A stretch of DNA of 64,000 nt from Tetradesmus obliquus. Lineage: Eukaryota; Chlorophyta; Chlorophyceae; Sphaeropleales; Scenedesmaceae. Positions 1 to 64,000 of the stretch are shown in pieces (the first letter of the stretch is position 1; each line of letters opens with the position of its first letter). The notes beneath the pieces are model-generated. The model searched no databases. It had not been told where the DNA came from and worked only from the letters and a program-made list of their open reading frames with translations. The translations under genes and the position numbers were made by a program. The stretch is from positions 1,975,501-2,039,500 of the forward strand of contig CP126194.1 in the NCBI GenBank assembly GCA_030272155.1, in the 5' to 3' direction.

Positions 1-164
1 ACTGGCCTTCCCTGCATCTCGCAAGGTATCTGCAACCAACAAACAGCCGAATGCAGCCAGCGTTTTCCCACCCATCACAATTATGTGCACCATTAAGGGC
101 GAGCAGCGCAAGGCCTGGGAGTGCCTCAGCAGCTGCGACTCACTAGCAGCGCTTGCTCACTTCC

Positions 165-712
165 CTAGAGCCTTATACCCACGCGGATCATAGCCAGCAG
201 CAGCCGTATTTGACTATATGTCTTGTTCACGCCGCCCGTGCTGCTCTCCTGCTGCTGCACCTCCTGCGACAGCTGGCACTGCGGAGACAGCAGGAAGGCC
301 CGCACAACCTTCATGCGCACGTGCCCTGCCTTCGTCAGCGACTCTGTGTTCTGCTGCACTGCCTGCGCCACTGCATTGTAGTATGCAACAGCTTTCCCAG
401 GCGCCGCCAGGTCAGCAGCAGCCAGCAGCGGCGCCCATGCCGCGCTGGCCGGCCCCTGCTCTTCTGCAACTTCCACAAGCGCCGCAAACACATCGCTAGA
501 GTTGCTGCCGTTGTTGAGCGACTGTGCTATGTCGTAGATCCTCATCCCCTGCATGAACATCTGCATCACCTGTTGCTTGTTGATGGCAGGCTTCTGACGG
601 CCCTGCTGCTGCTGCTGGCCGCCGCCCCCCTGCTGCCACTGGCCTTGCTGCTGCCCTGCCCTTGCTCTTCCGCTGATCATCTGCAGCACACCATTGTACT
701 CGCCTGGAAGTG

Positions 713-743
<31 letters not shown>

Positions 744-2822
744 GCGCGTTTGTTGAGACTGTCTAGTGTGCAGCCACTCACGACAGTGTCAGCAGGTGCT
801 GTGCACTCACCGCACAGCTGCTGCCTCACATAGCGCACGACAACAATCAGCACACACCCTGCCATCACCTGAGTCACACAATCCTCTGCCTCGCCACAGC
901 CCTTCCCACTCACCCTTGTATGCGCAAGCAGGCCGGTCGGATGGAACAGTCGCGGCCGTCACAAGCTCCCAAGAATCCAGCAGCACCGTGAGCGCTGGCC
1001 CGTGGCTTGGAGTGCTCTCCTGAGGCCGCATATCCAGAGCTAGATGCCCCAGCACACTCAGCAGCGCACCGCCCTGGACCTGCTGCGCCAGCGTGTAAGC
1101 GCGCTCGCCCCACGCCTCCACCTGCAGCAGAAGCAAAGCATATGCGATGTGATGGGTGCGGCATCACGTCAGTGTGAGGAGCAACGTTAATGTGCATTAC
1201 GGTCCGGGATACTGTGTGTGAAGCAACGCAGCAGCTGTGAGTTCAGGGTACCACAAGGCAGGCAGAATGCACTGAAACAACAAAGCTGCAGTGGCAGTTG
1301 AGGAGGTACAGCCGGGCCGCTTCAGTGATGCGGGACACAGCCTGCCGTGGGATCTCCTGTGAATAGTTAGCGGCGGTGAAGGAAAGCGGTGAAGGAAAGG
1401 CGCAAGACACGCCAGGCTGCCTCTAGCTGCATGCATTGCTCAGTGCAGTGCAGGCGCCATCGTGCGTCATGCTGCAGCAGCAGCTTGCAGTCAGCCATAC
1501 ACACTCTGGCCGGTACCCAGCTTGAGCCACTGTACAAGCGCTGATCCACACACACCTCTTGTGCAGCAGAAGGAAGTAGAAGCCAATACACGCACACATA
1601 TATCTCTTATACTATCTGCATCAACGCCCCCAGCACTCACCAGGATGGGCCTGGGTGCATCTGCCATCGCATCACCAGTGGCCCTAGCCAGCACTCCCAG
1701 AACCATACTGACCTTAACCTTCCCTGTGCCAAACTGCTGCAGGAAAGGCCCCTGCAGCACCACGCCAGTCAGGCCCACAATGTTAACCCAATCCTCCTGG
1801 AAATGAGTCACTGTTGGCTCTGACTGCGCCTGTGCAGCAGCTGGTGCTGCTGCTTGCAGGACACCTGCAGGCCCCTGGCCTGCAACCGGCGCCTGTATAG
1901 AGTACCCTTGCATCTGTGCCATGTCATAACCTGGCCCCTGCTGCATGTAGCTCTGCCCAGCAGCAGGCATCTGACCCATCGCAGGAGCCTGCATACCAGG
2001 TGCTAGCGGCTGTCCCATCGAGAACGCTGGAGCTTGCTGCATGTACGTTGGCTGCTGAACTGATGCTGCCTGCGTGTATGGCTGCCCAGGCATGCCCTGC
2101 TGCGGCTGCGGTGCAAACTGCATTGGCATTCCCTGCTGCTGCTGCAAGGGAGCCTGCATCTGCCCCGACGGCATCTGCGCCGGCTGCATTTGCCCTGGCT
2201 GCATATGCCCTGGCTGCATATGCCCTGGCTGCATTTGCCCTGGCTGCGTCTGCCCTGGGTGCATCTGCCCTGGCTGCATCTGCCCTTGCTGCATCTGCTC
2301 CGCCTGCCCAGGCACTACCTGCCCAGGTCCCCCCGCCTGCACCTGTGCAGGAGGCTGCTGCATGCTCTGTGTCTGCTCTGGCTGCTGTCCTGCTGCAGGC
2401 ATCGGCATTGCTGCAGCAGGATTGGTCTCAGATGCATGGCTTGGTGTGTAAGCTGGCATTTGCCCTGGTGGTGTACCATTGCTGCTGGAGGCATCTGGTG
2501 TTGGCTCTATTGATGCATCGCTGCTGTAGGAAGCAGCCAGATGCCTGGGATGGCGCCTGCTCGCACTGCTGCCGATGATGTTTGAATTGCTGATGCTGCT
2601 GCCACTGGCGAATGCTCGCAGGACTGGGGTGGCTGCAGCTGCACCTCGCCGTGCCACAGGAGCAGCAGCTGCTGCAGCAGCTGCCCTGCTGCCGACCGAT
2701 TGTGCGCGGCCGTGAGCAACTGCCAGCTGCCGCACCGCTGAGCAGTAAAGCTTGTTCGCTAGTCGTCCTGTCTGGCCCATGTGCTGCCGTTGCTGTTGCT
2801 GTTGAAGCAGGGAAGAACGCAT
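165..2822 (-). CDS. Organellar-type single-stranded DNA-binding protein (OSB/SSB-like) with Gln-Met-Pro repeats
   Basis: Three exons fit by phase: 2822-1641, 1121-914, 703-165 (1929 nt, 642 residues). The OB-fold spans the first intron. It opens with NIVGLTGVVLQGP and KVKVSMVLGVLAR near residues 342-375, as in the N-x-V-x-L-x-G opening of bacterial SSB, and continues in exon 2 with VEAWGERAYTLAQQVQGGALLSV-type sequence, the usual W-G-x-x-A strand and helix. Known members bind single-stranded DNA in mitochondria or plastids and affect recombination; an organellar location is inferred here. The first ~340 residues are a Q-rich, Ala-rich leader suited to organelle targeting plus a Met-Gln-Pro-Gly-Gln repeat. 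Exon 3 adds a Gln/Gly-rich linker and a helical tail with a short HTH-like stretch (INKQQVMQMF...MRIYDIAQSL). The start is the first Met of the open exon. The function of the tail is unknown. The 164 bases after the stop show no gene. Confidence 0.72.
2165..2315 (-). repeat. Coding 15-base minisatellite (Met-Gln-Pro-Gly-Gln repeat)
   Basis: About ten head-to-tail 15-base units (plus strand tgccctggctgcatc and close variants) code a pentapeptide M-Q-P-G-Q with substitutions (H, T, A, S) inside the N-terminal half of the SSB-like protein. The reading frame is kept through all units, so the tract is translated. Confidence 0.85.
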
Positions 2823-3510
2823 GTCAGGCTGGCTTTCTCCAGGCCAGCTGCCCGCAGGCTGCTTGCTGCTGTTAGCTACCCCTGTGCTTGAGTAGCAAAA
2901 TCAAAAAAATAGATATCGAGGTGTAGATTCGCAGGTGCTGCAGCTGCAGACACAGCCTGCATAGGTGCAAGCAACCAGGGCAGGAGTGTCAATAGCAGAC
3001 AGCAGAGCTTCTGCCAGTAGGCGCTCCGAGGCTGTCTCGGCAAGCCAAAAGGGCAAATAGGTACGCACCAGTAGAGGTTTCGCTTTGCCTCGCAGGACAA
3101 GGGAGCAACAGGAGCTGCTCAGCAGTCTGATGCTGAAGGGACTGTTGACATGCGGTGGGCCAGGTGGGCTAGCACAGCGAGGCCGCACTTAAAAATTCCA
3201 ACAGCAGCATCACGTTTTTCCCTGTTCAATTGCTGTCGTACAGCCACCTCGGCAGTGTAGGGCTTCGACACCCCACTTGGCTCTCACACTGACAGGTTAC
3301 TCCAAGTGGTTGATTTGGTGTGTTGAAGCGGGTTATAAGGGCTTGTTGCAGCCCCTTGCGTCAGTGTTAGAGGCATTATACGTGTACTTGCAGAACGAGT
3401 GTCGTTGACAGGTGCCAGCTGCAAAGTGAAGCATCTTCTCGTTCACCGCTGCTCACAGCTGTAGCACAACGCTGCAGTGCTCGATCTAGCACCCGTATTG
3501 TTCGTCGAAC
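2823..3510. promoter_or_regulatory. Divergent promoter region between the SSB-like and DnaJ genes
   Basis: These 688 bases separate the starts of two genes that point away from each other, so both promoters and both 5' leaders should lie here. I see no clear TATA box or named motif. The stretch from about 3180 to 3480 is less rich in CAG/CTG than the flanking genes. The boundaries are inferred from the two start codons only. Confidence 0.5.
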
Positions 3511-4398
3511 ATGGCTGATGCGGGCTCACCGGCTGAGCCTGTGCCTGAGACAAAGGAGCAGGAAGTAAACAAAGAGGCAGAAGAGGAGGACCCAAGGGAG
3601 GCCCTCAAACGTGAATGGCGTGAAGCAGTGCGCAAGACGCGGCCGAAAGATGCTGCAGGTACGTGTCAGCAACCTCTGAGCTCCATGCAGACTGTTCTGC
3701 AGGCTCTGCACTGTAGTACTGCCTAGCTTCCACATGCGCACACCTGACAGCAGCTGAATGCAGTTGTAGCAGTTGCGACAGGCACCCAGCAGTCCCAGCT
3801 GCCTGGTTTTTATTGCGTTCAGGTGGTTTCAAAAGCGGCCTGGCAACAGCTGCTGCTGGCATCGCCAGTGGCGTGGTTGGCTTAGTGGCTGCGCCAATTG
3901 TTGGAGCCAAGCAGGATGGGGCAGCTGGCTTTGCCAAGGGCATCGCTACTGGTAAGCTGCAGCAGCAGTAACTCACAATAGGTGCAAAGCAGCAGCTGGA
4001 ACTTGGCTCTTGTTACTGGGCAACCGTGGCATTCTGGCAGCTTGCATGCTTCCTGCAACTACACCGGCAGGAACCTGCTGGGAACCTTTTGAGGTCATGT
4101 TGCATATGAACTGGGTGGCGCATGTATATGCACTGCATTAGAGCTAAGAATGTCAGAAGTTGTGTATATCAAAATTCTGCTGTGGAGTCTAGCAGCAGCA
4201 GCACCATCACCATCGCAGTGTGATTGCCTGCACCAGGCGCGTGCGGCAGGTGCTAGCGGTTCTGGCCGGCAACCAGTTCTTGATGCTTGCCTTTGTCATC
4301 AATTCTCGCTGTTGCTGGCAAAACTGAGCCCAGCGCACGCGTACGTGGTGTGTGCTGGACATCACGCCTGCGCATGCAAGCTTACTAAGCCTACCCGT

Positions 4399-4440
<42 letters not shown>

Positions 4441-7400
4441 GCTGCAGGCATTGCTGGCGCTGTGGTGCTGCCGGTGGCTGGCGTGGTGGGAGGCGCAGTG
4501 CAGGTGGGGCGCGGCATCGCCAACCAGAGCGAAGCCACGCAGGAGAAGAAGAAAGGGCGCGTGTGGAACAAGGTATGCTGGTAGGCGCAAGGCACGGCAG
4601 CAGCAGCAACAACAGTGGCAGCATTGGTAGTAGCAGCAACAGCAGCACCAGCAGCAGCGACAGCAGATGTGGCAGCGCAGTATGCCATCGCAGATTGCTG
4701 CCACTTGCAGGCTCGAGCAGTGTTGCACGACCAACCGCAGCCGCAGCCTGCTGACAGTTTCTGACCTCACGCGTGTGCACCGCAGCCACCTTCAGCCACT
4801 GCACCACGCCTGCTGAGGCAATAAGATGTTCCCTCTCACAAGCACTAGCTGTGATGTGCCTTGCAGGAGAGCCGCCAGTGGGAGGACCCACCCGGCACTG
4901 AGCTGCAGGCCTATGATGAGGCAGCAGCGCAGCAGGCGCTGGGCGTGCCTCCAGGCGTTGACTACTATGCGCTGCTGGAGGTGGGCCGGGACGCTGACGC
5001 AGCCACGCTGAAGCGCCAGTACTACATCCTGGCCCGCAAGTGGCACCCAGGTGGGTTTGGGGCTGTGAGGTGGCTGGCAGCAACGGCTGGCAGGGTTGAG
5101 GGGTGCTTGCAGTGCAGCGCTATGTTAGACACGTATGTAATGCATGGCGTGTGTGACAGGATAAGCAGTGCGGAGCCGGCCTTGCGGAGAGCAGTTGGAT
5201 ACGCCAGCAGGAGCAGCAAGGTGCACACATCAGACGCCGAGCCAGCATTGCTGTTGTTGATCGTATCCACTCAACCTTTGTGCCCGCACTTGCTGTATAC
5301 TGCGCCACCTCAACACACTCGCAGACAAAAACCCAGGCAACCCCCGAGGCCTCACACCTGCTGCCGCATGCACTGTGCTGTCACCTGCTGCATGCTACTC
5401 TGCCTCACAGCACCCTGTACTGCCGTTGTTTCTTTTTCCCCCCGCCCGCAGACAAGAACCCAGACAACCCCGAGGCCACGCAGCGCTTCCAGCAGCTGGG
5501 CGAGGCCTACCAGGTGCTGAGCAGCCCTGAGCTGCGCGCCAAGTACGACAAGCACGGCGCAGCAGGCCTGGACGTGCAGTTCGTGGACCCCAGCATGATC
5601 TTCGGTGAGTAGCTTGGTTAGCAGGGGTTGACTACTTGTTTACCTAGAGCTGCATGACCTTTGCTGGGTGCTGTGTGAGCGGCAGCCATCGCTGGACGTG
5701 CAGTTTGTGGACCCCAGCATGATCTTCTGTGAGCTGCGTTACAGGGTGTGCTGCTTGTTGTAGTTCCACACAGCTGCAAGGTATATGTGGTGAGTAGGGG
5801 GCAGGGGGTATGGGCAATTTAAATGTTTGCCTGTACGGCTGCTGGAGCCATCAGGCATGCTTGTGCAGTTTGTGCACCTGGTGTCAGCCTTGAGGCCACA
5901 AAACCTTATAGACTGCTGCCCAAGCTGCGCTGCTTTTTGCTCGCCGCAACTGTGACCGCCTGCCCTGCCCGTGCTTGCGCTGCTGACGAAGAGTTTGCAT
6001 TTTGCTGTGCGCTGTGCTGCTGCCAGGCATGCTGTTTGGCAGTGAGCTCTTTGAGCCCATTGTGGGTGAGTTCCTCATCGCTGCAGCCACCTCCAAGGGC
6101 AGGGAGCTGTCGGAGAAGGAGATGAACCTGATGCAGGTGAGGGAGCACAGCAAGCACAGCTTGTGCTTCAAGCCTTGCTGATAGCCAGCAGCTGGCTGTA
6201 GGCCGTAGGTTTGTGCTGGACTGCTGGCAGCGCGCGGGGCAGTGCCGCATAATAATCCTCGGTGAGATGGCTGTTGTCTTACCTTGTCCCCTTGAGCTCA
6301 GAATACCTGATGCATGCTAAATATTCACAGCACAAGATGCTCATAGCCATGTGCACACATTGATGGTAACAAAACCATGTATGTTGCAACGCTGCTCCTG
6401 GCCTGCAGGAGACGCGCATTGCCAAGCTGCTGGTGAAGCTCAAGGCGCGGCTGGAGCCCTTTGTGGCGGGAGAGGCAGAGGCCTTCAGGGAGGTGCAGGC
6501 CATCAACGCGGAGCAGCTGGCGGCAGCCAGCTTCGGCAGCGTGATGCTACAGGTGCGGCGGCTCGCAGCACAAGCCTTGTGACTTATGCTCAGATTTGCC
6601 TTTGAACAGATGTGTGAATCATCATGTGAGATCGTAGCTGGGCTTGTGAGATTGTCTGTCCTGGCAAAACAGCGGCCCGAGCAGTGTTAGCTGGTGTGGT
6701 GTTTGGTTGCAACTTTCGGGGCAGGCTGTTCTGTTGATGCACGGCAGCCCCAATTTGCCTTTTTGAATCGAGACATGACCTCTCCAGACATGCTTCGTTT
6801 GTGATCCGCACCTGCTCTGCTGCCCTGTCACAGGCGGTTGGCCGTGTATACCAAACAGAAGCAGAGATATTCCAGAGCAATCCGCTGTTTGGAGGGTTCA
6901 GCAAACTTAAGCGCGCTGGAGATAGCATCAAGTGAGCAGCGCCTGCACTCAATGCAGCAACAGCAAGTGCAGTTGCAAAGAAGTAGATACAGCAGATGCG
7001 CGCTGTGTGCTGTGTGCGCTGTGTTGTCTGCGCTTGCGCAGCAGCATTGCCCTTCTATGCTTGCTTGAGCGTAGCAGTCGATTGCAACTTGTCAGCAGCT
7101 CGGGTACGCAGCTCTATGGGGCACGCCTCACACTGCACCCACCGCTGCTTCACATATACCAGCTGTTCTAAAGTTTGATGCTCATGTCCTGCAGGTCTCA
7201 GCTGCAGGCAGCCAAGGCAGCAGTCGACCTGATGCAGCATCAAACGAAGCTGGAGGCAGCAGACGCAGCGCTGAAGCAGCACGCAGCGGCGCTGCAGGAG
7301 CAGCACGGCAGCGCGGCGGAGCTGCCAGAGGTAGCACGCGTGCAGCTGGCAGGCATGATGCTGCAGCGGTGAGTGTGTTGTGTGTGGCTGTGTTGCAGCT

Positions 7401-8536
7401 GCAGTTTGACAACAGCACTGCTTATGCTAGGCTGGGCCAGGTGGCTGCTGCGAGGCTTGCTGTTTGGCATTTTTCTGGTCCTGCACTGAGGCTGGTGGTG
7501 CATGTAGCAGCGGCACAAGCACGCACCTTGCTGATCCCAGCCACAGCTTCAGCAGGCAGGGCCAGTGCTGCTACCTCTTTGCTCATCAAGCCCGCTCATC
7601 TATTGCTTGCCCGTTGTATCCATTAGACTGCGCGTGTCATTCGCCCCCTGCCACTGCCTGCAGGCACCTTGCGCATCCCAGGCACAGCGATTAGCAGGCA
7701 GTCTCAGCAAGGCCAATGCTGCTGGCTGTGTGATCACAAACCCCACCAATTTATCATAAACTGTCATTGCCACTGAACCTCCTGCATTTGCTGCTGCCTC
7801 CTGCAGGCACGAGCTGGAGGTGGCTGGCATGGGCCTGGCGCTGCAGGCCATGTGGGCGGCAAATGTGCTGGACATCCAGCGCACGCTGCACCAGGTGTGC
7901 AAGCGGCTGCTGCGCGAGCCGGGGCTGCCCAAGCCGCAGGCCAAGCTGCGCGCTGCTGCGCTGGCGGAGCTGGGCCGCATCTACCTGGAGGCGCAGGTGG
8001 GGGCTGCGAGAGTTCATTTATTTCATTTTGATGGTGTTACATATGGTTTCAAACAAGAAGTAAGGGTTGAATGACTGAGCCATTGGTGGAAGTCTTGAAG
8101 TACTTTTGGGGAGGGTTTGGGCGGCTCACCGATGATTGCTGGCTCAGTGGAGGCTGCAGCTGGCATGGTTGAGGCATGCTTTGCGTCAAGAGTCGTGACA
8201 GGAGCAGCAGCACAGGCTGCTGTGCCTGTATGCTGCCTGTCTGTTGTTCTTGCAGTGTGTGCATGCTGGCTGGCGCGGGCAAGCCGATTGTGCTCAGCAG
8301 TGTCTGATGTTTGTCATGCCGCGCTGCTGCAGGTGCCTCCTGAGCTGCAGAAGGACACGCAGCAGCAGATGAAGGAGGCCCTAGAAAAGCTTCAGGAGCT
8401 GTACATGGGCCAGACAGCAGCAGAGGAGGCAGAGGCAGAGGCGGCTGAAGCAGCAGCAGCAGCAGCAGCAGCAGCAGGGTCTGGCGCAGCAGGGCGAGCA
8501 GGCGCATCAGCAGGCAGCAGTGCCGGCGCCAGTTGA
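3511..8536 (+). CDS. DnaJ (Hsp40) protein with DnaJ-X domain and a glycine-rich N-terminal region
   Basis: Eleven exons fit by phase: 3511-3658, 3823-3951, 4448-4572, 4867-5050, 5452-5604, 6027-6136, 6409-6552, 6834-6931, 7195-7368, 7807-7996, 8333-8536 (1659 nt, 552 residues). Residues 1-49 are charged. Residues 50-120 are Gly/Ala/Val-rich ([20 protein letters not shown], then [16 protein letters not shown]), suiting membrane contact. The J domain covers about 166-230 (DYYALLEVG, then HPD at 194-196, KYDKHG). HPD is split by an intron inside the Asp codon. Next comes the DnaJ-X region of plant and yeast CAJ1-type proteins ([14 protein letters not shown]..., NPLFGGF). The C-terminus is coiled, then Ala-rich. 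J proteins stimulate the Hsp70 ATPase through HPD, which is intact here. The Gly-rich part resembles amphipathic segments in lipid-transfer proteins such as VPS13; this is a resemblance only. Partial copies of both ends of exon 5 lie in its flanking introns. Confidence 0.88.
4401..4439 (+). repeat. (CTG)13 microsatellite in DnaJ intron 2
   Basis: Thirteen uninterrupted CTG triplets lie directly before the CTTGCTGCAG acceptor of exon 3, and may act as part of its pyrimidine tract. Confidence 0.9.
5321..5351 (+). repeat. Upstream partial copy of the DnaJ exon 5 start with its acceptor
   Basis: The sequence gcagacaaaaacccaggcaa and the following cccccgaggcc repeat, with a few changes, the real acceptor and exon 5 start at 5448-5477 (gcagacaagaacccagacaa, cccgaggcc). 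The offset is about 128 bases. The copy keeps the AG acceptor. Confidence 0.8.
5692..5735 (+). repeat. Downstream partial copy of the DnaJ exon 5 end with its donor
   Basis: The last 37 bases of exon 5 (from 5568, ctggacgtgcagttcgtgga to atgatcttc) recur at 5692 with only a few mismatches, followed by a GTGAG-containing donor-like site. The offset is 124 bases. Confidence 0.85.
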
Positions 8537-9635
8537 CCTTATCCATGGAATTCTTTACAGGGGTGTGGGAGTGCAGTGAGGTGCGGATGCTCAGTTGCGC
8601 GCTGCTGGTGCACCAGGCGGCATATTAAACATTGCAGGGGTCAGCATCCCCCTGCATGTTGTGTTGCTGCATGAAGTCGTGGAAGGGGCTCATGGCTCTT
8701 GCGGCTGTCATATTTTGCATGTTGGGGTGTAGGGCAGAAAAAACACATCAGGGCTGCTGCATTGGGATGCAAGAGTACTAGCTAGTGGGGCTGCTGCAAT
8801 GGCACTTCTCGAGTACACCGGGAAAAGGAGATAGGTTCATACCAGTACTGCCCCTACAGTATCAAGAGATGCGCAATTGCGCCTTGGGTGCTGGCCTGTG
8901 TCTGGCTGTAGTTTTGTTGGGCATGCTTGTTATGCTTGTCGGTGCGTTTGTCAGCATCGTCAGTCTTGTCCTGTTGTTGTGCACTTCTGGTGCCGCCAAC
9001 TTGTGAACTTGGAGTTACGACTTGCGTATCTACTGTTATTGTCAGTGGATTTACAGTGGAATGGCGTGCTGGTCAAGCTCGCAGTGATTCAGCGGCAGCC
9101 CGTGAGTAGGACTACAAGGCGACTGTGAGATGCAGCTGGGTCACTGCATGCATTGTCTGTGCACAGCACAGCAGGTGGTCCAGTGTTCCGCTCTGCATCC
9201 GCACTGTTCCAGCACCGTCACCTTGAGGAACATCGTGTTCAGTAAAAAAAACGGGTGAATTGTATGGCGTGCTTGTGCCGTGGGGATCAGGCCTGTTTTT
9301 CTGCTGGGAACGGGATGCTGCAGACTAGACAGCAAGCACGTTGGGCGCCGATACCGTGGAAACAAGGAAATTGCTGGATCAAATCAGAAAAATTACTGTT
9401 GTGTGCTGCTCTGCTGTTGTCAAGCATGGATGACGAGTGGGGTTACCAAGCCCATGTCACAGTGTGTGCACGCAGCCTGACAGCTTTGTATCAGCTATCA
9501 AAGTGCTTGGCGTGCAGGCAATTAACAGATATTCTACTTTTTTGATTTGTTCTGTCGTGCTCCTCACGTAGCAGCGGAGAAGACTGGTCCGCCAGGTTAA
9601 CCTTAACGTTACGCGCCACTCCCGGGACAAATTGC
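8537..9635. other. Intergenic, 1.1 kb; 3' end of DnaJ gene and promoter of MFS gene
   Basis: No convincing gene. It should hold the DnaJ 3' UTR and the MFS promoter and leader. One short open frame at 8785-9006 codes a hydrophobic stretch but has no other support. Confidence 0.6.
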
Positions 9636-12600
9636 TTGAAGTTCACTTGTTCTTTCGTCATGCAAGCTAGTCAGGATCGTAAAACCGGACGTGAGGATAC
9701 TCTCAGATGGCTGCAGAGTTCTCGACAGGACGAGCAGCCTGGTCTTGAACTACTGCCAGCAGCACCTGCCCTAAGCACCACCAAGAACAGCTTTCTGCTG
9801 CGGCTAGAGTCGTCTGGCGATACAGCAACCGGCAAAGATGGTGCAGAACGTGCAGCTGCACGGTCAAAGCCTTGCAAAGACCCTGATGGTACCGCACACA
9901 GCGCCATCATCATCACAACGCCCAGCGACAGCAGCAGCAATGATGGCAGCAGCCCTGTGTCGATCTATGACGTGCTGTCTCGCAAGCGCAAGTATGCCAT
10001 CATCTACATCAGTGCAGTAGCTGCGATCCTGGCGCCCCTGTCAACTACCAGTGAGTCACCTTTTCCATCGCTTTTGCTGGCACCGTGGTCTGTGTGCCAT
10101 CCAACACATGCTGTTGCAGCTGCTGCTCAAGCAGACCTATGCAAGCAGGCCGACTCAGGACAGTTTGAAATGGAACCCTGCCGCCATGCGGTGCCTAGGG
10201 GTGTGCCTGGGAAGTGTTGAACTTTGGTTGAACTAGTGCTATTGAACCTAACCCATGCATGCTGTTCTTGTCGCTTGCTGCAGTGTACCTGCCTGCGCTG
10301 CGGCCTATTCAAGCAGACCTGCACACCACAATAGAGCTAGTGGTGTCTAGTGTGGTGAGCGCCTGCAGTATTGGCACAATTGGCGCAGCAGCACTGCAGT
10401 CAAACCCCTCCTGAGATTTGCAGGACAGCAGGAGCGTGGCAGAGACAGCGGCACCCGCCGAGACAACTTGCAGGATTGCTCCAGACTTTAAACCAGCAGT
10501 AGGAGCAGCAGCAGGAGCATGCACAGCAGCAGTTTGCGTCGCTCTGCGATGAGCTGACAGCGCAGCTGCTGCATATTGGCATGCTGGTGCTGTAGTTGAG
10601 CTACCCTGTGTGCGCTGTGCTGTCTGCTGACATGCCCACCCCTGCAGGCCATCTACATGTTTGTCATCGGCGCTGGCGCCCTGCTGTGGTGAGGAGACAG
10701 GCAGTAGCAGCAGCTCAGGCCGTCAATGTTTCCTTGATGACTTGCAGGACAGTTCACCTGGATGTAGCTTTGGGCATACCCACAGCGCTGCACACCAGGC
10801 TCCATGCGTGTTTCGTGAGCGAACAACTGCGCAGGCAGACTAACCTGCTGCCTGGTTGACTGCAATACCTTTGTGCATGTTTGTGTCGCAGCTGCAGAGC
10901 CTCAACAGCTCGGTTTGCTGCGATTTCTCCTCATGCTCAAAGTCATGCTCAGTGATGCTCCTTTGCATGCAGGGGCCCGCTGTCTGACTGGCTGGGGCGG
11001 CGCACCGCCTTCCTTGCGGCCACGCTGCTGTTCCTGGCCACTAGCATACCCTGCATCTTCGCGCCCAGCATCTACCTGCTCATCGTGTTCAGGGCGCTGC
11101 AGGGCCTGGCAGTGGCAGCATACGGTGAGGGGGCTGCAGGATAGGCTTGCGTGCATGTTTTGCTGAGCGTTAGCGGCTTGGAAGCTGCCTGGTGTACGAG
11201 ATGCTGGCATACGACGATGCCAGCTGACTCGTGGACCTAATATGACGAGCTGCGGTGCAGCAAGCATGCTACTTGTGTGTTTCCTGCAAGTTGTTTGACT
11301 GCCTACCTGCCTTGTGCTGCCGCCTGCGTTGCTGCAGGCTCTGTCGGCAGTGGTCTTGCTGCTGACATATTTGCACCCTGCGAGCGTGGAACAGCGCTGG
11401 GCATCAGCTCAGTGCCGCCCCTTGTGGGGCCTGTCATGTGAGTCGGCACTGCAACGCAGCCCTTGCAATTGCCAATCCGTGCACGCTATATCCTGCAAGC
11501 CTGCTCGGTCCTGGACACTGTAGTACACTTGCAGAATGCAACTCGCCGGCAGTGCGTACAAAACCTACAGATCACGATGCTACGTGTTGCCAGTGTGCAG
11601 TGTAGCAGACATTTTTGCTGTGCCGGATGGCAACCACAGTCTGTGAACATTATGCTTGCTTCTCACAGCAAGTGCCACACCCAGATTTGTTTGCTGCAGA
11701 TGTTCGACTCATGTTGACCGCTGTGACATCATCCTCTGCCTCTGCTTGCTGTGCTATGCTGTGCTGCAGTGGCCCGCTGCTGGGTGGCGTGCTGTCTGAC
11801 CACTTTGGCTGGCGGTCAACCTTCATCTTCACCACCTGCATGGCCGGTGTGGTCATCCTGCCGCTGCTGCTGTTCTTCCTGCCAGGTGAGCTGCAGCAGG
11901 CAGGGCAGCACTGTGCAGTGCTGCTGAGCTGCATGTCATGCATGCTTGACGCATACAAAGAGAATTCGGACATGGTAAGCGTGGCGTAATGTTGTTCAAA
12001 CGCTGGTGCTGTTGTGCTGCCTCTGCTGCCGTTGCAGAAACAACGCAGTACCGCGCGCTGCGACGCCTGCGCGCGACTGACCCGCAGACAGCAGCCGTCA
12101 TCAAGGAAGCAGACAGCATTGAAGCAAGCCCTCCAAGGTTCAGGGCCCCCTGGTACCCTGTGCTGCTCATCCTGGACCGGCAGCTGATCCTGCATGTAGC
12201 ATTAGGCCTTGTGGCATTTGGCTCTTACTACTGCAGCGTCACTGAGCTTCCAATCAACCTGGGATCGCCAGCATATGGCTTGTCACCTTCCAAAGTCGGT
12301 CTGTGCTACCTGCCGATTGGTGTCGCTGGTATGCTGGCATGTCCGCTTGGCGGAAAGGTATCGGACATCTGTGGGCGCGTGAATCCGTCGCAGCCGCTCC
12401 GTAAGGTGCTGCCTAGCAACGCAATGCTGCTGTTTGTGTTCCCTCCATGCCTGCTGCTGTACGGGTGGAGCCTGCACTTCCATATGCACATAGCTGTGCC
12501 GCTGATTGGCATCTTCCTTGTCACACTTGCCACCTGCTCGTATCTGCCGGGTATCTTCTCATACATGACTGCAGTGAAGCAGCAGACGGCTGGTGCTGCT

Positions 12601-17300: not shown

Positions 17301-18678
17301 GCTGCTCATCCCGCCGCCTGTGTACCAGACACTGCTGGGCTGGCCTGCCAACAAGACAGCAATCAAAAGTTTTGTCACATACACAATTAACTGGTGAGAA
17401 GTGCCACGTGATCGGCTATGCAATTCTACTGTACAGCTGTTGGGTGCAGCTCATGCAATGGCCTACGGAGGCAGGAACTTTACAGCGTGCCGTGCACTGC
17501 GTAAGTATTAACTGGTGATCCAGCTACCAGTAACACGTCTAAACAACAGAAGCATGTAGGCTTTGATGTTGAGACGCTGTCGCTGCTCTGCTGCTGCTTT
17601 CCGCTGCTGCTGCTGCTGCTGCTGTTGCAGGCAACCCATGCATGTGACGTGGGCGGTTGATGGCAAGACCCTGCGCACCATGCGCAATGGCGAGTTCAGG
17701 ACCTGGTTCGACATGGGGGGCAAGGAACAAAGGTAGGTGTTTGCCAGACATAGGGTATGGCGTCCAACAGACTTCTGCCAGCCAACCATCAGCTGTTGAC
17801 ATTCGGTACGGCTGATGGCAGCTGCTCAACAGTTGAGTACTGCAGTGCTTGTTCACTTGCAGCTGCCGACATCTGCCAACATACAATGGTCAGACACGCT
17901 GTTGTTGGCAGCATCATGCAGCCTTTTGATGCAGCCCTATGAGCCTCTCGTTGGCTTCCCTATGAGCCTCTCGTTGGCTTCCCTATGAGCCTCTCGTTGG
18001 CTTCCCTATGAGCCTCTCGTTGGCTCCCTATGAGCCTCTCGTTGGCTCCCTATGAGCCTCTCGTTGGCTCCCTATGAGCCTCTCGTTGGCTCCCTATGAG
18101 CCTCTCGTTGGCTCCTGACTGGGGTTCCCACTCACCCTATGAGCCTCTCGTTGGCTCCTGACTGGGGTTCCCACTCCCCCTATGAGCCTCTCGTTGGCTC
18201 CTGACTGGGGTTCCCACTCCTCGTTGAGTGGAGCATGTAATGTAATGTAATGTTGATTCTCAGCGACAAACACTTGCTTGGGTCAAGCATGCTGGCCAGA
18301 ACGCTGCAGGCTGAATTGCCACAGGCTCTGCTTGCTTGCCATTTTAGCCTGACACTGCTGAGCATCGCTTCCGCTTCCGCTTCCGCTGCTGCTGCTGCTG
18401 CTGCTGCTGTGCTTGCCGCATGCACCACCGTTGTCGCTGACAGTGCTGTATTCCAAAGCCCCAACCTGCCCTCCCGCGCTACCATCAGCATGTGGACCGA
18501 CAGCAGCAGAGGCAAGAAGCCTGCAGATATGTTTGGAGGCGTGTTGGATGCAAAGAAGGGTCCTTACTTCAGCTACTTCAAGCAGATGCGGCGCGTGCTG
18601 TGTGATAAGCTGCTGCCAGCTCGAGCGCAGGCTGCAGCAGGGCCTGCCTGGCTGACGGCAGCAGTCAAGGGAGCGTGA
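14359..18678 (+). CDS. Secreted WSC-domain plus GH16 family glycoside hydrolase
   Basis: Eight exons fit by phase: 14359-14667, 14979-15189, 15510-15585, 16425-16601, 16830-16946, 17283-17393, 17631-17732, 18444-18678 (1338 nt, 445 residues). The start was chosen because MWLLLALALLSRLTSSSAQ is a good signal peptide; a Met 11 codons upstream is in frame. A WSC domain spans about 75-172 (GSYIGCF, then CSAFCAASF and WRCRCS, with the Cys pattern of the family). The GH16 beta-jelly roll follows: LYGAWQVQAKV, then the catalytic E-I-D-V-E-W at 273-278 with E273, D275 and E277 as the expected nucleophile, helper and acid/base, and HVTWAVDG. GH16 enzymes cleave or transfer beta-1,3/1,4 glucans or galactans, and WSC domains bind glycans, so a cell-wall role is likely. 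The substrate is unknown. The last acceptor (18444) is less certain than the others. Confidence 0.85.
15809..16377. repeat. G-run-bounded inserted-looking segment in GH16 intron 3
   Basis: This 569-base piece starts with 11 G and ends with 14 C. Just inside both ends are related inverted sequences (catcatcatccctttttgg near 15838, and aaggttttttatgatgatg near 16326). Two G-rich blocks (15935-15962 and 16292-16314) are direct repeats of each other. Base composition differs from the CAG/CTG-rich surroundings. It could be a foldback element, but no target-site duplication was found. Confidence 0.45.
17936..18222 (+). repeat. Two-tier minisatellite in the last GH16 intron
   Basis: Ten copies of tatgagcctctcgttggc begin at 17937, 17961, 17984, 18007, 18029, 18051, 18073, 18095, 18138 and 18181. 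The first spacings are 23-24, then 22 bases. The last copies have a 43-base unit that adds tcctgactggggttcccac. Confidence 0.93.
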
Positions 18679-55961: not shown

Positions 55962-56834
55962 TCAGTCGTCCATCTTCATCGCCAGGTCACCTCCCAGCGC
56001 ACCAGCCAGCCCGCTGTCATATAACAGTCCACTGGCGGTGTTACTATGCGTGGGGCTCGCCAGCCGCATCGGCGGTTCTAGCGCCCCCAACCCTAGGCTT
56101 TCAACCAGGTTGTCTGCATCAGTAAAGCGCCGAGGCGGGCTGCCGTCGTTCAAAAACGCCATCGCAACATCCAGATCCTCGCCGCCGATCTGCACATTGC
56201 CCAGCGGTGAGTCCGGGCGGTCGCCCCAGGGCGCCGACGCATCCTGCCACTTGGCTGCTGCTGCTGCCGCTGCTGCAGCAGCCGAGCCCTGCGGCGCCTG
56301 CCCCATCCCTTGCATGCCGAATCCACTGGACATCTGCCCGGCAGCAGCAGGCGCACCTGCAAATCCTGCAGAGCTCATGCCAGCTGGCGCTGCATGCATT
56401 TGCCCGTGGATGTCAGCAGGGCTGCGGTTGTACACAGAGCCAGCTGAAACCGGGCCGCTGCTGCCATGGTGGCTGCCAAGATAGCCGCCTGCTGCTGCTG
56501 CTGCTGCTCCTTGGTGGGAGCCGTAGTAGCCTGCTGCAGCTGCTGCTGGGTCCGGGTGCTGCTGCTGCATGCCACCTGGGTAGCCTGGCATGCCGGATCC
56601 CATCATGCCATGGGGCTGCTGCTGCTGCTGCTGCTGCGGGTGCATGCCATAGCTACTGCCGGGAGCTGCTTGCAGAGTTCCTGGCATCGAATGCGCCCGG
56701 CCGGCATCCACATCTCCAGGCCCCGCAGAATGCGCGTGTGCCATGTGATGATGGCCATACACCGACGTCTCGTCAATGCTGGCCAGCTGCGCACAGCTGT
56801 GCGCTCGCGGCATGCCTGCGCTGTTGCGCCGCGC

Positions 56835-56870
<36 letters not shown>

Positions 56871-58093
56871 AGGTTGCCCTAATGAAGGGGCTAGGCTGCT
56901 CTGCTGCATGCTGCCAGAGTGGCTAGCAGGGCCCCCAGCCATGAACGGACCCCCGCTTTGGTGCTGCTGCTGGTAGTGCTGCTGCTGTTGCGGCTGCTGC
57001 TGGTGCTGGAATGCAGCACCGCCTGCCCCTGGATGGTAGAAGCCGCCATGCTGCTGCTGGTGCGGCTGCTGCTGCTGCTGCTGATACGGCGGCAGCTGCG
57101 ATCCACCCATCTGCATGTGGCTGCTGCTGTGCTGCGGCACAAACCCTGAACCCTCGGCACCCCAGCTTTGGTGCCCCATTAAACCGCACTCCGGACCAGC
57201 CAGGAAACCCCGGTTGCTAGAAGGGCTGATCGGCACCATGTTGCTCAGGTTGCTTTCTGAGGCGATGCGGTTCATGCCAGATTTGAAGCCTGTGGGGTTG
57301 GGGTTGATCAGGTGCTGCTCGCTGCCCACACGCACCATCAGCGGCTTGCTTTCAGCAGCATACTCAGGCGTGGTGGTGGCGCTGCAAAAAAAGCAGGCAG
57401 CACGGGTACACGATATCCAAGTGAGACCGATGTTCAGTGACTTGAACAACAACGGGCCTTCGCCAGCCAGGGCATGAGAATCACAGCATGGCAGCACAGG
57501 AGGCCAGACATGCAAGAGATGCCTGCAGCCGAGTTAAGCGCTGCATTACTCTGGAAGAAGCAGACCCGCTTGCAATCTGCGCGCGACCCATATGCACAAC
57601 ACATGTTGTCCCACCGGCCACATGGCACACTTGAACAGAACATCCCTGCCCATCCAGAAGGAGCACGCAAGTTGCAGAACACCTTCCGCTCACCTGAAGG
57701 TGCCTTGTAGGCTGTTCCTGGGCGAGCTGCCAATGCCTGGGCTGCTGTTGATGCCTGCTGCTGCTGCTGCTGCTGCTGGTGGTGGTGGGGCCAGTGTGGG
57801 AGGGCTGCTGACTCCCCCAGCCATGAATGCCAGGTTGCCGCATGACCTGCTCATGCGCAGGGCTGGGTGCTGCTGGTGCTGCTGGTGCTGGTGGAAGTGG
57901 TCAGGCATCTGCAAAAACACAACACAGCAGGCATGCCAGTCGGTGACGAGCACGCATACGTCAAACTAGCATTGTGACAGTTACATGACAATGCAACATG
58001 AAAATGTAACAGGGCGTACCTGGTAGGACAGCTCTGTGTTCCAGAAGGTCCCTTCCAGCTGCGGCCCTCCTGGGCCATGCCCACCACCCATGA

Positions 58094-58127
<34 letters not shown>

Positions 58128-61100
58128 ATACGGGTACTGCTGCTGCTGCTGCTGCTGCTGGTGCTGTTGCTGCTGCTGCACAGGCACGCTGCCGTAGGCC
58201 TGCAGCCCACCAGAAATGCCGCCCCTGCTGCTGCCACCATACGGCGCTGGCAGCAGGTTGGGCGAGCCGGCATCGCTGCAGCCGTAGCTGCGCAGCTGCG
58301 GCTGCGACTGCACGCGCGTCATGCCGCCCATGCCGCCCATGCTGCTGCCGCCAAACCCATGGTGCTGCTGCTGCATCGCGCCATAGTGCTGCTGCCCCAT
58401 GTGCTGCCCCATGTGCTCCCCCATGTGCTGCTGCTGCTGCTGCTGCTGCCCAAACATGCCTCCATGTGCATGGCTGCCAGACGCATCCAAGCTATGCATA
58501 GCCGGCAGTCCTGGGATGCCTGACTGCCGCATACCATGCATGTTGTGGCTGGCTAGCTCCCCTTGTAAACCTCGCCCTGCAATGCTGCTGAGCGGCACAG
58601 GAGCAGCCGCCGCCGCCGCAGGATCTGGCGGAGACAGCGGCGCATTGCCCATCACCAAGCTGCTCGTCACAGCACCAGACTCCAGCCCAGAAAGCGCCGA
58701 GTAACTCGCAGACTTCACCATGCCGCGCAGGCCGCCGCCGCCTGCTGCTGCTGCTGCTGCTGCTGCCGCGCTGCCGCCACCAAACGTTGCAGCCATGCTG
58801 CCAAGCCCTTCCGGCGCGCCGGCTACTGCCCCCGTCACGCCGCCTGACGCGCCGCCGCCAGAGTGCGCCGGCGCGACTGCGCAGCCGCCGCCGCTGCCGC
58901 TGACGTTGCCGGCACTCGGCTCGGATGCTGACTGGTTGGCTGAGTCGCCGAGTGACACCAGATCGCCGATGCTGACGCTGCGGGTGACGCCGTTGGGGGC
59001 GCGGATGGATTGGCCCTCATCATCGAAGAGCAGGCCGGCATCGATGAGGGGCTTGGCTGTGAGCGGCAGGCCTGTGGGGTGCATCTCCAGCTGGTGGTCC
59101 TGCAGGCAGCAGCACATGCGGCAGCGAGCATACACGGTAATTTGCTGAGATTCTGACACATAGACGTGCAGAGGGGCTTGGCTGTGAGGGGCAGGCCTGT
59201 GGGGTGCATCTCCAGCTGGTGGTCCTGCAGTGAGCAGCACAAGCGGCAGCGAGCATACACGGTAAACTTGCTGAAATTCTGACACATAGACATGCAGAGG
59301 GGCAGGCCTGTGGGGTGCATCTGCTGCTGGTGGTCCTGCAAGAGTGAGCAGCCGGCGCAAGAGTGACAACACATGGTTGGCTGGCCTGTTACAAATCGGC
59401 ATGTTATGCTGGAGCGCTCGATGCTGGTGTACCAATACACGTGCCTTTGCATGTGACAGAGGCGGCGGCTGAAACTGCACTGGTGCACACGCAGCAAGAG
59501 AATTGGCACGACATGTTAGACGTCTTCCACTTCTACAATAAAAGCTGGCCGGCGAAGGAGCCGCTGCAGACCAAAGGGCAAGTTGCTGGTGCCCGCCGCA
59601 CTGCCTTGAAATGCTGCTGACACGCCAGGTGGGCAACCGTCAACTAACAACACCATATGCACAGCCTATGCAGCTTCAACAAACAAGACAAAACTCCACA
59701 TTTAGGCTGGATCAAACACAAAACACAAAACACAAAACAGGTATAATTACACACCTTGGCTGCCGCCTTGGCGCATCCGCCAAGACAACAGACAAGGTGC
59801 GCAAACATGTCTGATTTGTGTGTGGTTGAGCAAGCCAATAAAATATGGAGTTTTGTCTTGTTTGTTGAAGCTGCATAGGCTGTGTATATTAAGTGTTGTT
59901 AGTGTGTATACAAGTGTTGTTAGCCACGTCAGGCGGGCAGGAGTCCTTGAAGTTAGCGCACACACAAACCAGCTCTTGCAGCTACAACACAACACAGCAC
60001 CCAGCCAACCCCTCCACTGTACAAGGGCCATCGCGCCTGCAGCAAGCGCTAGCAGTCGTTGCAGCTGAAGTGACCATGCTCCTACAGTACGTAAAAACTG
60101 CTTGTCAGTATGCAGTGCGATAAGCAAGGGCCTCACACCTTGTCCGGCCTTGAGCGCCTCCACCACGTCAGGCGGGCAGGAGTCCTTGAAGTTGGCGTAC
60201 ACACTCAAACCAGACCATGCAGCTACAGCACGACGCAGCACCCAGCTTGACCCCGCCATGCACCTTGTCGGCTGCCTTGAGCGCCTCTGCCACGTCGGGC
60301 GGGTTTTGCAGCTGAAAATGGTCGAAACCCCAACCACGCTGACCAAAGCACCAGCACATTGTAATGGCTGTGTTATAGCGCGCACCTTGTCAGCCGCCTT
60401 GAGCGCCTCCGCCACGTCAGGCGGGCAGGAGTCCTTGAAGTTGGCGTAGTTGCGCGCCTCACGCGGCTTGAGCCGCCACACCGCGGTGTCGTAGGCGCGC
60501 GCCGCCTCCAGCTCCGTGTCAAACAGCTCCCTGTTAAGCATACGTGGTGAATGAAAGAGATTGTTATGCTGTGCACATCAGCAGTTGCGCCATTGCAACA
60601 ACAAAAGGGTGAAAAGAGTAGGCATGCTGCTGCCAGGGTCGAGGCTGTCAACACGTCTTCAGCCAGTTTCCATAAGACATGCTGTGGCCACCTCCAGCAA
60701 AGAGCTGCTGAGCACCAACCACGCAGCAGCCCCCCTGCCCCTCTACCACTACCCCTAAGCAATAATATTTGCAGGGTGTGGCGACACAAGACAGCCAGTA
60801 AAGGCCCCTCACCTGTAGGCCCACTTCCTGTTGAGCATGACCTTGGCCTCCCAGCGGCCCTTCTTCTTGCTGACCCCCCTGTAGGTGCTGCTCTTGTCCA
60901 TGGGCTTCACACCCAGAGCGCGCTGCAGCTCCTCACGAGTCAGCCCAGACAGCTTCTGCTGCAGGCTGCCCACCTCGTGCTTGTACTGCAGCACATCAAA
61001 GGCAGGCGCAACAAAGGCAAACATGCGGTGAATGAGAGCAGGATGCAATATAGCAGGGGCTTCTGCTGCCCGGAAACTGCGAGTGAGCCCAGACAGCTTC

Positions 61101-63915
61101 TGCTGCAGGCTGCCCACCTCGTGCTTGTACTGCAGCACAACACAGGCAGTGAAAGGCAGGCAGATGAGCAGGAGGTGATATAGCAGGTGAGCAGGCTGCA
61201 ACGTAGCAGGCGCTTCTGCTGCAGGCTGCCCACCTCGTGCTTGTACTGCAGGCGGTGCGAGGCAGGATGGATGCGGCAGGTGAGAGCAGCATGCGATACA
61301 GCAGGCGCTCCTGCTGCACAAAAACCTTCAGCAGGCTTCTAACACTCATCATACAACGCGCAGCATGACTCAGAAGGTTGCACGGTTGCGCGCCAACCCT
61401 AAGCAGCCCACATGCAGCGGTCAAACCCCGGTCAAAGCTGGGTCAACACCGGTCAAACTACTGCTGCGCCCACCTGGTCAATGGGGAAGTTGGTCTGCGC
61501 GCCGGCGCCGTGCAGGCTGATGGACACCTTGTCATACACGCGCGCTGCCTCTTCTTCAGTTCTGTAGTAACCCAGGTGAGTGACCTTGCCATGGTACAGG
61601 ATGCGCGCCTGCCACTGGTTCTTGCGGTTGCTGCTGCCCACACCCAGGTACCTGCTCAAGAAGCAGTAAGGCATAAGTAGTGTCAACACTAGCCTGCTTC
61701 AGACGGAAGGGGATTACACACTGCTCTCTACGTGCTGCAAAGCGGATGCCACAGCCTCGACTGTGCAGCATCGTATCTCCTGCTGCTGCAGCAATGCTTG
61801 ACACATGCGCTGCATTTATAACCTGCTCCCATGCTGCTGCTGCTGCTGCTGCTGCTCCCACCTGCTGGTGCGGCGCCTGTTGGTGAGGCGGCGCCGTGGC
61901 AGCTTGGCCCGCTCAGACTTGAGCGTGGCCTTCACCTCCTCACGTGACTTGCCTGCAGGTGCAGTAGACACGACACACATGCGGCCAGCAGTCAGTACGG
62001 CTTCAAAACAAGCACACAACTGGTCTGCTGAACAACTGCAAGACGGTGCAGCCTTCACCTCCTCGCGCGACTTGCCTGCAGACACAATGACAGCAGCCAG
62101 ACAGCAGCACAGCACACACATCAGATACGTGCAGCCGCCGCACTGCTGCCTTGGGCGTGGCCTTCACCTCCTCACGCGACTTGCCTGCAGCATAAAGAAT
62201 TGCAGGATATCATACTTTGCAATCAACACAATGCAACATGATGCGTACCTTGTGCTCAAAGGGCCCTCCGTCAGTGCAGGCGCAGCGTACTCGGCCAGCA
62301 GCAAAAGCCCACATCAGACACGCACAGCCAACGCACTGCCTTGTGCAAGTTTGTGAACCTGAACCCAGTCTTGCAGACGCATTGCCGGAGTCATGTGCCG
62401 TGGCATTCTGCTGGTCAGATGTTGGTGCCTCTCCCTTTGCAGGCGTGGATGCGGGTGCTTTCTTGGTGACTTAGAAGAAGCCTTCTAAAACCCCAAAAAA
62501 CCACCCGCATCAACACCTGCGAAGGTAGAGGCACCGACACCTGCCAAACAGCGCCACCACCCCGCTTGCCGCCACCACACACTTCCGTGGCGCATGCGCT
62601 AACAACTATCATTTGTTTGACTGTCTTCAACAAAATAAGACCTCCATGATCACAAACATGCTGCTGGCAAGGATACAAATTGAACAGCTGCAGTCAAAAC
62701 AAGTTTCAAAATTTAAAAAGATAACGCACCCACAAGCTCCGGCACGCTGTCATTGTCATACTCCTCAATGGGGAAGTTCAGGATGGCGCGGCAGTTCTGC
62801 CGCCCCAGCAGCCCAATGGCAGCGCGGTCATACGCGCGCGCTGCCGCATCCTCCGTGTCAAAGTAGCCCACCGACACGCCTGCAGACGCGTGCACAACAT
62901 ATCATCACATGCAGTCAGCCTACATGGTTGCAAAGTTGACGACACACAGGCGCCGCCGCATCCTCCGTATCAAAGTAGCCCACCGACACGCCTGCAGTTG
63001 TGTGCACAACATATCATTACATGCGGTCAGCATACATGGTTGCAAAAATTTAGGACACAAAGCGCTGCTGCATCCTCCGTGTCAAAGTAGCCCACCAACA
63101 CGCCTGCAGACGCATGCATAACATACCATCACATGCGGTCAGCATACATGGTTGCAAAAGTTCAGGACACAAAGCGCCGCCGCATCCTCCATGTCGACGT
63201 AGCCCACCGACACGCCTGCAGTTGTGTGCACAACATACCATCACATGACGTCAGCGTAGATGGTTGCAAAAGTTTAGGACACAGCGCCGCCGCAACCTCC
63301 GTGTCGACATTGCCCACCGACACCCCTGCAGACGCGTGCGTACCACATTACATTGTTACGTATGTTACGTTTTAAGCAACAGACAGCGTCAAGAGTGCTG
63401 CTGCACCATCCCCGTCAAAACGGCCAGCCGACGCGCCTGCAGCGGTATGCATGGACGGGTGCACGACACATACATGGTGAAAAGGTGAGATAGGCTGCGC
63501 GGCTGAGGTACATACACGCAGTGCAGCCACAGTTACTCTGCTGCTGCTGCTGTCGCTGCTTGCTCGGCCACCAATGCACTGGCATCACACAATGCACGAT
63601 GCGTGCACCCTGCAACCCTTCCACTGCTTTCAAGGCATCTGTAACACACAAGTTGCCGCATCATGCCGCTCAGCCGCGCACCTGACTTGCCCAGCGCCGC
63701 CACTTTGATCTGCACCCTCCACTTGCGCTTCTTTTTGTCATAACTCACACCCCTGTACTGAGACCTAAACACAGGCTGGCCCTCGCCACCCCCAGCAGCC
63801 GCAGCAGCAGCAGCACCGCTGCTGCGCAGGCTGCTGCCGGCGCCATGCGCTGCTGCTGCTGCAGCCGCCCGCTCTCGCTGGACCTCCCGCTGCTGCGCTG
63901 CAGCGCGCCCGTTCA

Positions 63916-63955
<40 letters not shown>

Positions 63956-64000
63956 GTAGCTGTCGTTGCTGCAGTTGTTTGCTGCGTTGCCAAATGACAG
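55962..64000 (-). CDS. AP2-domain transcription factor with three AP2 domains (5' end beyond the window)
   Basis: The exons fit by phase: from beyond 64000 to 63682, 62879-62730, 61952-61862, 61651-61474, 60985-60813, 60530-60386, 59099-58020, 57908-57694, 57381-55962. AP2 domain 1 (YRGVSYDKKKRKWRVQI, then VGYFDTEDAAARAYDRAAI) is split by one intron. Domain 2 is YLGVGSSNRKNQWQARI with LGYYRTEEEAARVYDKV. Domain 3 is YRGVSKKKGRWEAKVMLNRK with FDTELEAARAYDTAVWRLK, and lacks the usual Leu-Gly before Phe-Asp-Thr. AP2 domains bind GC-rich DNA by a three-stranded sheet, and multi-AP2 proteins are common in green algae. The C-terminal 900 residues are Gln/Gly/Met-rich with polyQ, fitting an activation region; they contain short islands (RSVSIGDLVSLGD, RIASESNLSNMVPISPSSN) with Ser motifs suited to phosphorylation. 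The open frame still runs upstream at the window edge. Five exon edges are copied in tandem into introns. Confidence 0.85.
59045..59338 (-). repeat. Array A: three copies of the acceptor and start of the AP2-gene 1080-base exon
   Basis: The exon start (DHQLEMHPTGLPL) with CTGCAG acceptor is at 59099. Copies start at 59224 and 59335 (offsets 125 and 111). The third lacks about 15 internal bases. The intron part of the unit (for example tgtgtcagaat) is copied too. Confidence 0.92.
59644..59902. repeat. 259-base imperfect hairpin in AP2-gene intron
   Basis: The arms ctaacaacacc...cagcctatgcagcttc and aacaaacaagacaaaactcc pair with their reverse complement at 59847-59902 almost perfectly. The match resumes near the centre around cttggcgcatccgccaag. 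A second gtgttgttag follows at 59914-59923. Confidence 0.88.
59924..60450 (-). repeat. Array B: copies of the end and donor of the AP2-domain-3 exon
   Basis: The true exon end is 60386 (KAADK then GTGCGC). Copies end at 60264 (GTGCAT follows) and 60139 (GTGTGA follows), offsets 122 and 125. A truncated copy starts at 59924. The exon part copied covers ANFKDSCPPDVxEALKA. Confidence 0.92.
60930..61245 (-). repeat. Array C: three copies of the acceptor and start of the exon before AP2 domain 3
   Basis: The exon start YKHEVGSLQQKLSGLT is at 60985, and copies begin at 61129 and 61245 (offsets 144 and 116), each after an intact CTGCAG. Confidence 0.92.
61925..62190 (-). repeat. Array D: three copies of the acceptor and start of the linker exon before AP2 domain 2
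   Basis: The exon start (GKSREEVKAT) is at 61952, with copies at 62075 and 62184 (offsets 123 and 109), each after CTGCAG. A further intron-only relic is seen near 62290-62345 (cacatcagacacgcacag). Confidence 0.9.
62838..63443 (-). repeat. Array E: six copies of the acceptor and start of the second AP2-domain-1 exon
   Basis: The true exon start is 62879. Copies begin at 62991, 63103, 63215, 63325 and 63436, a period of 110-112. Each keeps the CTGCAG acceptor and about 45 bases coding GVSVGYFDTEDAA or a decayed form. Odd and even copies differ after the acceptor (acgcgtgc against ttgtgtgc). Confidence 0.95.

Follow-up and report, generated by a model that had tools for sequence, protein, structure and literature searches.

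Why should the introns of an algal gene hold repeated copies of that gene's own exon edges, and is such copying confined to one gene or general in the genome? The question is raised by the window examined here, a 64,000-nucleotide stretch of Tetradesmus obliquus contig CP126194.1. A preliminary description had seen in it five arrays of exon-edge copies in one gene, and had proposed a general mode of amplification, distinct from introners and whole-exon duplication, that may be a mechanism of intron growth and of splice-site redundancy.

The gene, at 55962..64000 on the minus strand, is an AP2-type transcription factor gene of nine exons:

63682-64693, 62730-62879 and 61862-61952, minus strand: exons 1-3 of the AP2 gene, closed open frame
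61474-61651, 60813-60985 and 60386-60530, minus strand: exons 4-6 of the AP2 gene, closed open frame
58020-59099, 57694-57908 and 55962-57381, minus strand: exons 7-9 of the AP2 gene, closed open frame

A single open frame runs from the ATG at 64693 to the stop at 55962 and all introns are GT-AG; exon 1 extends beyond the window end to 64693, in the continuation of the contig. The predicted protein has an AP2 domain (PF00847, E 8.4e-16, 58.5 bits). Its closest named orthologue, P0002, comes from Scenedesmus sp. NREL 46B-D3 and is 89% identical across 95% of the AP2 region.

Each of the 16 exon edges (eight introns) was compared with its own intron, up to 894 bp, with 300 shuffles per edge that kept base composition only, not dinucleotides. 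Five edges, the acceptors of exons 2, 3, 5 and 7 and the donor of exon 6, have two to five copies in the adjoining intron, as had been described. They score 41 (array A), 36 (B), 46 (C) and 43.5 (E) for the acceptors and 34 for the donor (D), whereas no shuffle of any edge exceeded 13.5; the other 11 edges of this gene score 5-10, within their own shuffle ranges. There are five copies in A, two in B, two in C, three in D and two in E. The spacing of 109-144 given in the preliminary description holds for most copies and fails for one spacing of 239 in array D. TRF at its usual threshold reported array A alone.

62838..62885, minus strand: array A, real acceptor edge of exon 2 (exon part 62838-62879, plus ctgcag)
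62950..63459, minus strand: array A, five intronic copies (offsets 112, 224, 336, 446 and 557; 112-bp unit)
61918..61958, minus strand: array B, real acceptor edge of exon 3 (edge-versus-intron alignment)
62041..62190, minus strand: array B, two intronic copies (offsets 123 and 232)
60936..60991, minus strand: array C, real acceptor edge of exon 5 (boundary 60985)
61080..61251, minus strand: array C, two intronic copies (offsets 144 and 260; exon part 0-2% diverged)
60380..60448, minus strand: array D, real donor edge of exon 6 (boundary 60386)
59923..60326, minus strand: array D, three intronic donor-edge copies (offsets 122, 249 and 488)
59046..59105, minus strand: array E, real acceptor edge of exon 7 (boundary 59099)
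59171..59341, minus strand: array E, two intronic copies (offsets 125 and 236)

The outermost copy of array A is strongly diverged and that of array D is without the exon end and splice site. Because the copies are 0 to about 37% diverged from the real edge and several have distinct spacers, misassembly of the locus is unlikely. The predicted frame skips the intronic copies and uses the original edges, with no new intron created. Introns with arrays measure 802, 777, 488 and 1286 bp, and the four without arrays 210, 282, 111 and 312 bp. No copied segment is present twice in any of the three orthologues examined (P0001-P0003). In P0002 the exon 6 end that array D copies is missing, so either the P0002 model is faulty or splicing there is different. 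Intron 6 also contains, between arrays D and E, an inverted repeat (59655-59889; 49-bp arms, 96% complementary, 137 bp apart), for which a whole-genome DNA search that scored only the best candidates found no second site.

A second gene of the window has two further copies, both beside one exon:

5325..5345, plus strand: intronic copy of the acceptor edge at 5451 (offset 127)
5692..5733, plus strand: intronic copy of the donor edge at 5604 (offset 124)

The first is weak, with an exon part of just 20 nt and spacer homology that is not significant. Elsewhere in the window a 22/43-bp minisatellite lies at 17935-18219, where the gene finder predicts an intron, and CTG/CAG runs are very numerous, both in introns and in polyglutamine and polyalanine coding frames.

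Exon edges across the genome were predicted from sequence alone, with our own two-strand gene finder, which applies a minimum intron length. It was trained on the window, its 6 kb continuation and 24 stretches of 10 kb, on 14 contigs. The stretches lay at chosen round-number positions and were not drawn at random; 26 were fetched, and two satellite-rich ones, L012 and L027, were left out of all gene work (positions 1-10000 of each contain satellite-like arrays whose offsets include some of about 312-375 bp). The analysis covered 337,531 bases of a genome of 104,662,953 bases in 17 contigs, from one strain. The trained signals were CAG/GTGAG for donors and TGCAG/G for acceptors, with a median exon of 144 and a median intron of 240. 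Thirty-three loci were tested, including eight kinase loci, and L024, a proline-repeat gene, was excluded from most later counts. Low-complexity edge queries were dropped, as were 81 of 200 copies that had an exon of <15 nt past the copied part or a copied part of <20 nt. The same mostly coding array, with a 117-bp period, occurs at L028 2316-2768 and 7857-8309, 5541 bp apart and with identical scores, probably a recent local duplication.

Without L024, copies stand on the non-coding side of 62 of 813 sampled edges (7.6%, about 1 in 13) at 18 of 32 loci, counts to which copies that the gene finder predicts as exons also contribute. With L024 the figures are 67 of 840 edges and 19 of 33 loci, made up of 31/407 acceptors, 32/404 donors and 4/29 stop codons (three without L024). 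At a score of at least 24, 9-10% of donor and acceptor edges have a copy; the corresponding rates are 1-2% in the middle of introns, 1-5% in the middle of exons and 0 in shuffles, in a test that used the first gene model and shuffles keeping base composition only. Of the local repeat pairs at offsets of 90-170, 32 of 49 contain an edge, against 17.4 ± 3.2 in 300 rotations (maximum 26; L024 and L028 omitted). When every offset is counted only a weak excess remains (104 edge-containing pairs of 227 vs 86.2 ± 9.1, rotation maximum 110), since coding repeats make up most of the pairs at longer offsets. Copies cluster by gene (statistic 14.3 vs 8.4 ± 0.8, maximum 12.2 in 2000 permutations), and all fall in 21 of 53 genes. 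Hosts include the conserved genes for beta-ketoacyl synthase (L016), glutamate-cysteine ligase (L023), an FMN oxidoreductase (L031) and photolyase (L033), and two kinase loci (L006, L008) from a Pfam Pkinase search. The phenomenon is thus general in the sampled genome, as had been proposed. A restriction to splice sites is not supported, since copies of stop-codon edges exist as well: L026 has a copy of its last exon's end, with the stop codon, in the 3′UTR, so splice sites are not required.

The copies have a regular anatomy. Nearest copies lie 83-179 bp away at 52 of the 62 edges and beyond 200 at 10, and from 80 to 180 the 20-bp bins hold 3/15/13/15/6. The exon part is 20-147 nt (median 48.5) and the spacer is at least 43 where the distance P is at most 185. 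Three array units, those of A and C among them, were searched genome-wide, with best candidates scored and very common words skipped, and each matched only its own locus; in this the arrays differ from introners, as claimed, and the copies of these three units are confined to their gene of origin. The units of arrays A and C match their neighbours head to tail and contiguously, the 144-bp unit of C over most of its length with gaps (81%, 75%). Spacers of copy and original are related (p ≤ 0.05) in 43 of 71 pairs and not detectably so in the other 28. By these comparisons, the birth of at least most copies is by tandem duplication of a contiguous exon-plus-intron unit, and for the remaining 28 pairs this is assumed. 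Because contiguous tandem duplication explains the birth of at least most copies, an origin outside known mechanisms is not supported. In the photolyase array (L033 8240-9800), a copy at offset 590 has a spacer identical to the real one over 70 bp and an exon part 0.92 identical, which looks like block duplication within the array.

Intron growth, also suggested beforehand, is borne out. Introns with copies have a median of 410 (n = 34) and array-free introns 231 (n = 419; p 1e-7); against array-free introns of at least 150 bp (median 269) the difference remains (p 4e-5). With the array span removed the median is 263, like that of array-free introns (p 0.80). The array span accounts for the extra intron length.

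What is unusual about these copies is how much the two parts of the unit differ in identity. Splice-site alignments of real edges with their nearest copies, 29 acceptors and 30 donors, give an identity of 0.86-0.94 for the exon side and 0.87-0.90 for the AG/GT. Identity is 0.44-0.59 at -7 to -20, and the 0.33-0.35 at -40 to -50 compares with 0.26 for unrelated edges. Free decay should affect the exon and spacer parts of an intronic copy equally. Yet two intronic copies of the same edge (65 pairs in 24 arrays) are 0.86-0.90 identical from the third exon base on and 0.78 at the first two exon bases, with 0.44 at -10 to -6 and 0.35 at -30 to -20. Exon-only preservation is sharpest in an acceptor copy at L013 1434-1612, where 46 nt match at 98% and the spacers show no detectable relationship. 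A similar step in identity occurs in copies of three stop-codon edges, and such copies cannot be coding. Third positions take 0.54 of the changes between real edges and copies called non-coding, and 0.48-0.51 of those among copies, against references of 0.33 for free change and 0.75 for real lineages (30 of 40 changes); judged by sequence, the copies are not ordinary coding exons. Derived variants are rarely shared between copies of an array. In a site-pattern test for conversion, seven arrays gave only five informative site pairs, one of them incompatible.

We consider tandem duplication followed by exon-limited conversion or recopying the best explanation, with a probability of about 0.5. 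Short tandem duplications, with a unit mostly of 100-160 bp, would straddle the coding/non-coding border and be frequent in this genome. The initiating lesion would most likely be break repair with complementary overhangs, or polymerase template switching. The original edge would stay in use, as the AP2 model predicts and as we infer for the other genes, so that the protein is unchanged and the extra unit becomes new intron or 3′UTR sequence. Repeated rounds would build arrays and lengthen introns. The intron-derived part of the unit would then drift freely, while the exon-derived part and the core splice signal would be repeatedly overwritten from the real edge, or recopied from there, by short-patch gene conversion or template switching. 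This may hold the exon part near 90% identity, with conversion halting where spacers have diverged too far. Duplications and their length effect can be read from the sequences compared above; the exon-limited maintenance step is the part that we infer. Conversion or recopying at different times fits the third-position values and the scarcity of shared derived variants, although the share of 0.48-0.51 among copies could also reflect weak coding constraint. More tentatively, and at somewhat less than even odds, tandem duplication may seed a genome-wide maintained reserve of exon-edge copies, in which exon-limited conversion or selection keeps the exon side and the splice signal, with introns growing by accretion of splice-competent border copies.

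Selection could act on the copies directly. They might serve as decoy or alternative splice edges that purifying selection maintains because, once the spliceosome binds them, they tune splicing, for example by unproductive splicing or buffering. The kept block, exon sequence plus core signal with identity dropping right past the signal, is what such a role would leave. A splice site scoring at least 4 is kept by 0.68 of the acceptor copies, compared with 0.145 of intronic AG, and by 0.62 of the donor copies, compared with 0.074 of intronic GT. The splice-site redundancy suggested in the preliminary description is partly supported, in that a strong site is often kept. The third-position excess and a deficit of in-frame stops (8 of 95 copies vs 14.8 ± 3.4 by random placement) point the same way, as does an opposite-end acceptor at 0.40 of donor copies (0.19 in the control). 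However, an opposite-end donor occurs at only 0.11 of acceptor copies (0.09 in the control), multiples of three are not favoured among the offsets (P mod 3 = 11/18/23), AG and GT are kept no better than the exon part (40/47, 38/48), and stop-codon copies in 3′UTRs, in the few cases available, are equally conserved. We regard this explanation as rather unlikely.

A simpler account, which adds no further process, is plain neutral duplication and decay: duplications would fall uniformly and those that touch exons would stay recognisable because their real-exon partner is constrained. Full-unit young arrays do exist (L033 1067-1734, array A), spacer homology is found in the 43 pairs, and a real-copy third-position ratio of 2.38 (95% 1.84-3.00) suits free copies beside a constrained exon. 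The equal divergence it expects is at odds with the intronic copy pairs (0.86-0.90 in the exon part vs 0.32-0.47 in the spacer). Because copies had been found by their exon part, flanks of equal length were also searched: exon-flank copies occur at 71 of the 614 usable edges (of 840) and intron-flank copies at 18, a ratio of 0.25. Eight neutral simulations gave 0.63-0.93; the simulations assume one indel model. In a simulation with the same detection step as the search, none of 18 neutral age and indel settings gave an exon identity of 0.906 together with a spacer score of 0.12; with the exon part of copies slowed to 0.3-0.5 of the neutral rate, some of six settings came near to a fit. A uniform origin also predicts non-coding duplications about equal in number to edge ones, or up to twice as many, by the edge classes counted. 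At offsets of 90-170 there are eight wholly non-coding pairs, against the 32 edge pairs and 18.2 by rotation. Among TRF arrays (24 rows merged to 22) one is wholly non-coding vs 5.9 ± 2.0 by random placement (P 0.0055), and 18 are mixed vs 13.9 ± 2.2 (P 0.04). Uniform neutral duplication is thus rejected on counts, flank ratio, simulations and copy-copy identities, and plain neutral duplication and decay is improbable.

Copying might instead be specific to edges, by template switching or reverse transcription from nascent transcripts, such that many copies never held much intron. This would suit the 28 pairs without detectable spacer homology, whose exon part is about 90% identical (L013 being the extreme), and the few shared derived variants, as in a star-like tree. 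It does not suit the spacer homology of the other 43 pairs, the gapped unit matches of array C, or units that are mostly intron, such as L008 1015-1521 (about 17 of 140 nt exonic, by eye), and we think it quite improbable.

Other candidates were rejected: a dispersed element or introner, since all three units searched were found only at their own locus; in-frame exon extension, ruled out by the distribution of P mod 3; cassette exons for acceptor copies, in view of their opposite-donor rate; and de novo introns from exonic AGGT duplication, as copies lie inside long introns and off the opposite splice site (a few, by eye). Copies do not each carry both splice sites, and donor copies with an opposite acceptor are a minority. 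Exon duplication and mutually exclusive exons also place copies of exon sequence inside introns; here, unlike there, a single edge is copied, acceptor copies are without the opposite site and no frame is preferred.

Possible further background is given by Zhuo et al. 2007 and by studies of paired nicks in plants. Internal tandem duplication is known (Rogers 1989, Gao & Lynch 2009 and Hellsten 2011, as cited in PMC4974935), and tandem duplication within genes has been reviewed (PMC3443670). In the potato RdRp gene the end of an intron and the start of an exon were duplicated, according to the passages concerned in PMC4974935; that unit, like ours, is a contiguous part-intron, part-exon segment and also held the 3′ splice site. 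In the cases treated there a new intron or altered transcript results, whereas the AP2 model ignores the copies, and here 7.6% of sampled edges are affected, in a narrow size range and with the exon side selectively kept. Introners, as outlined in PMC9860276, likewise lengthen or multiply intron sequence genome-wide; they are families that insert into many genes, whereas our units are local and derived from the host exon edge. Breaks with complementary overhangs yield small tandem duplications (PMC8355091), a known route to short head-to-tail copies; those were <100 bp, from nuclease breaks in mouse and human cells, whereas ours are mostly 100-160 bp, and the portions of that paper considered here make no link with exon edges. 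No account of exon-edge arrays appeared among the entries listed in the literature searches, which do not cover most subscription papers. Neither a comparative-genomics paper on Sphaeropleales nor the paper on Scenedesmus sp. NREL 46B-D3 uses the word 'intron' in its main text. What is new are the density of the arrays and the exon-side conservation.

Among the five green algae tabulated in PMC5966456, mean intron length is greatest in T. obliquus, at 462 bp vs 230-302. Edge arrays offer a directly countable route of intron growth, in which the array-free remainder has ordinary length. They also call for caution in annotation, because a gene finder trained on T. obliquus itself predicted a number of copies as exons. 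Many natural splice-site competitions are available within this one genome, and the arrays provide a test case for homogenisation among adjacent repeats, namely whether its protection can be limited to a unit's coding half.
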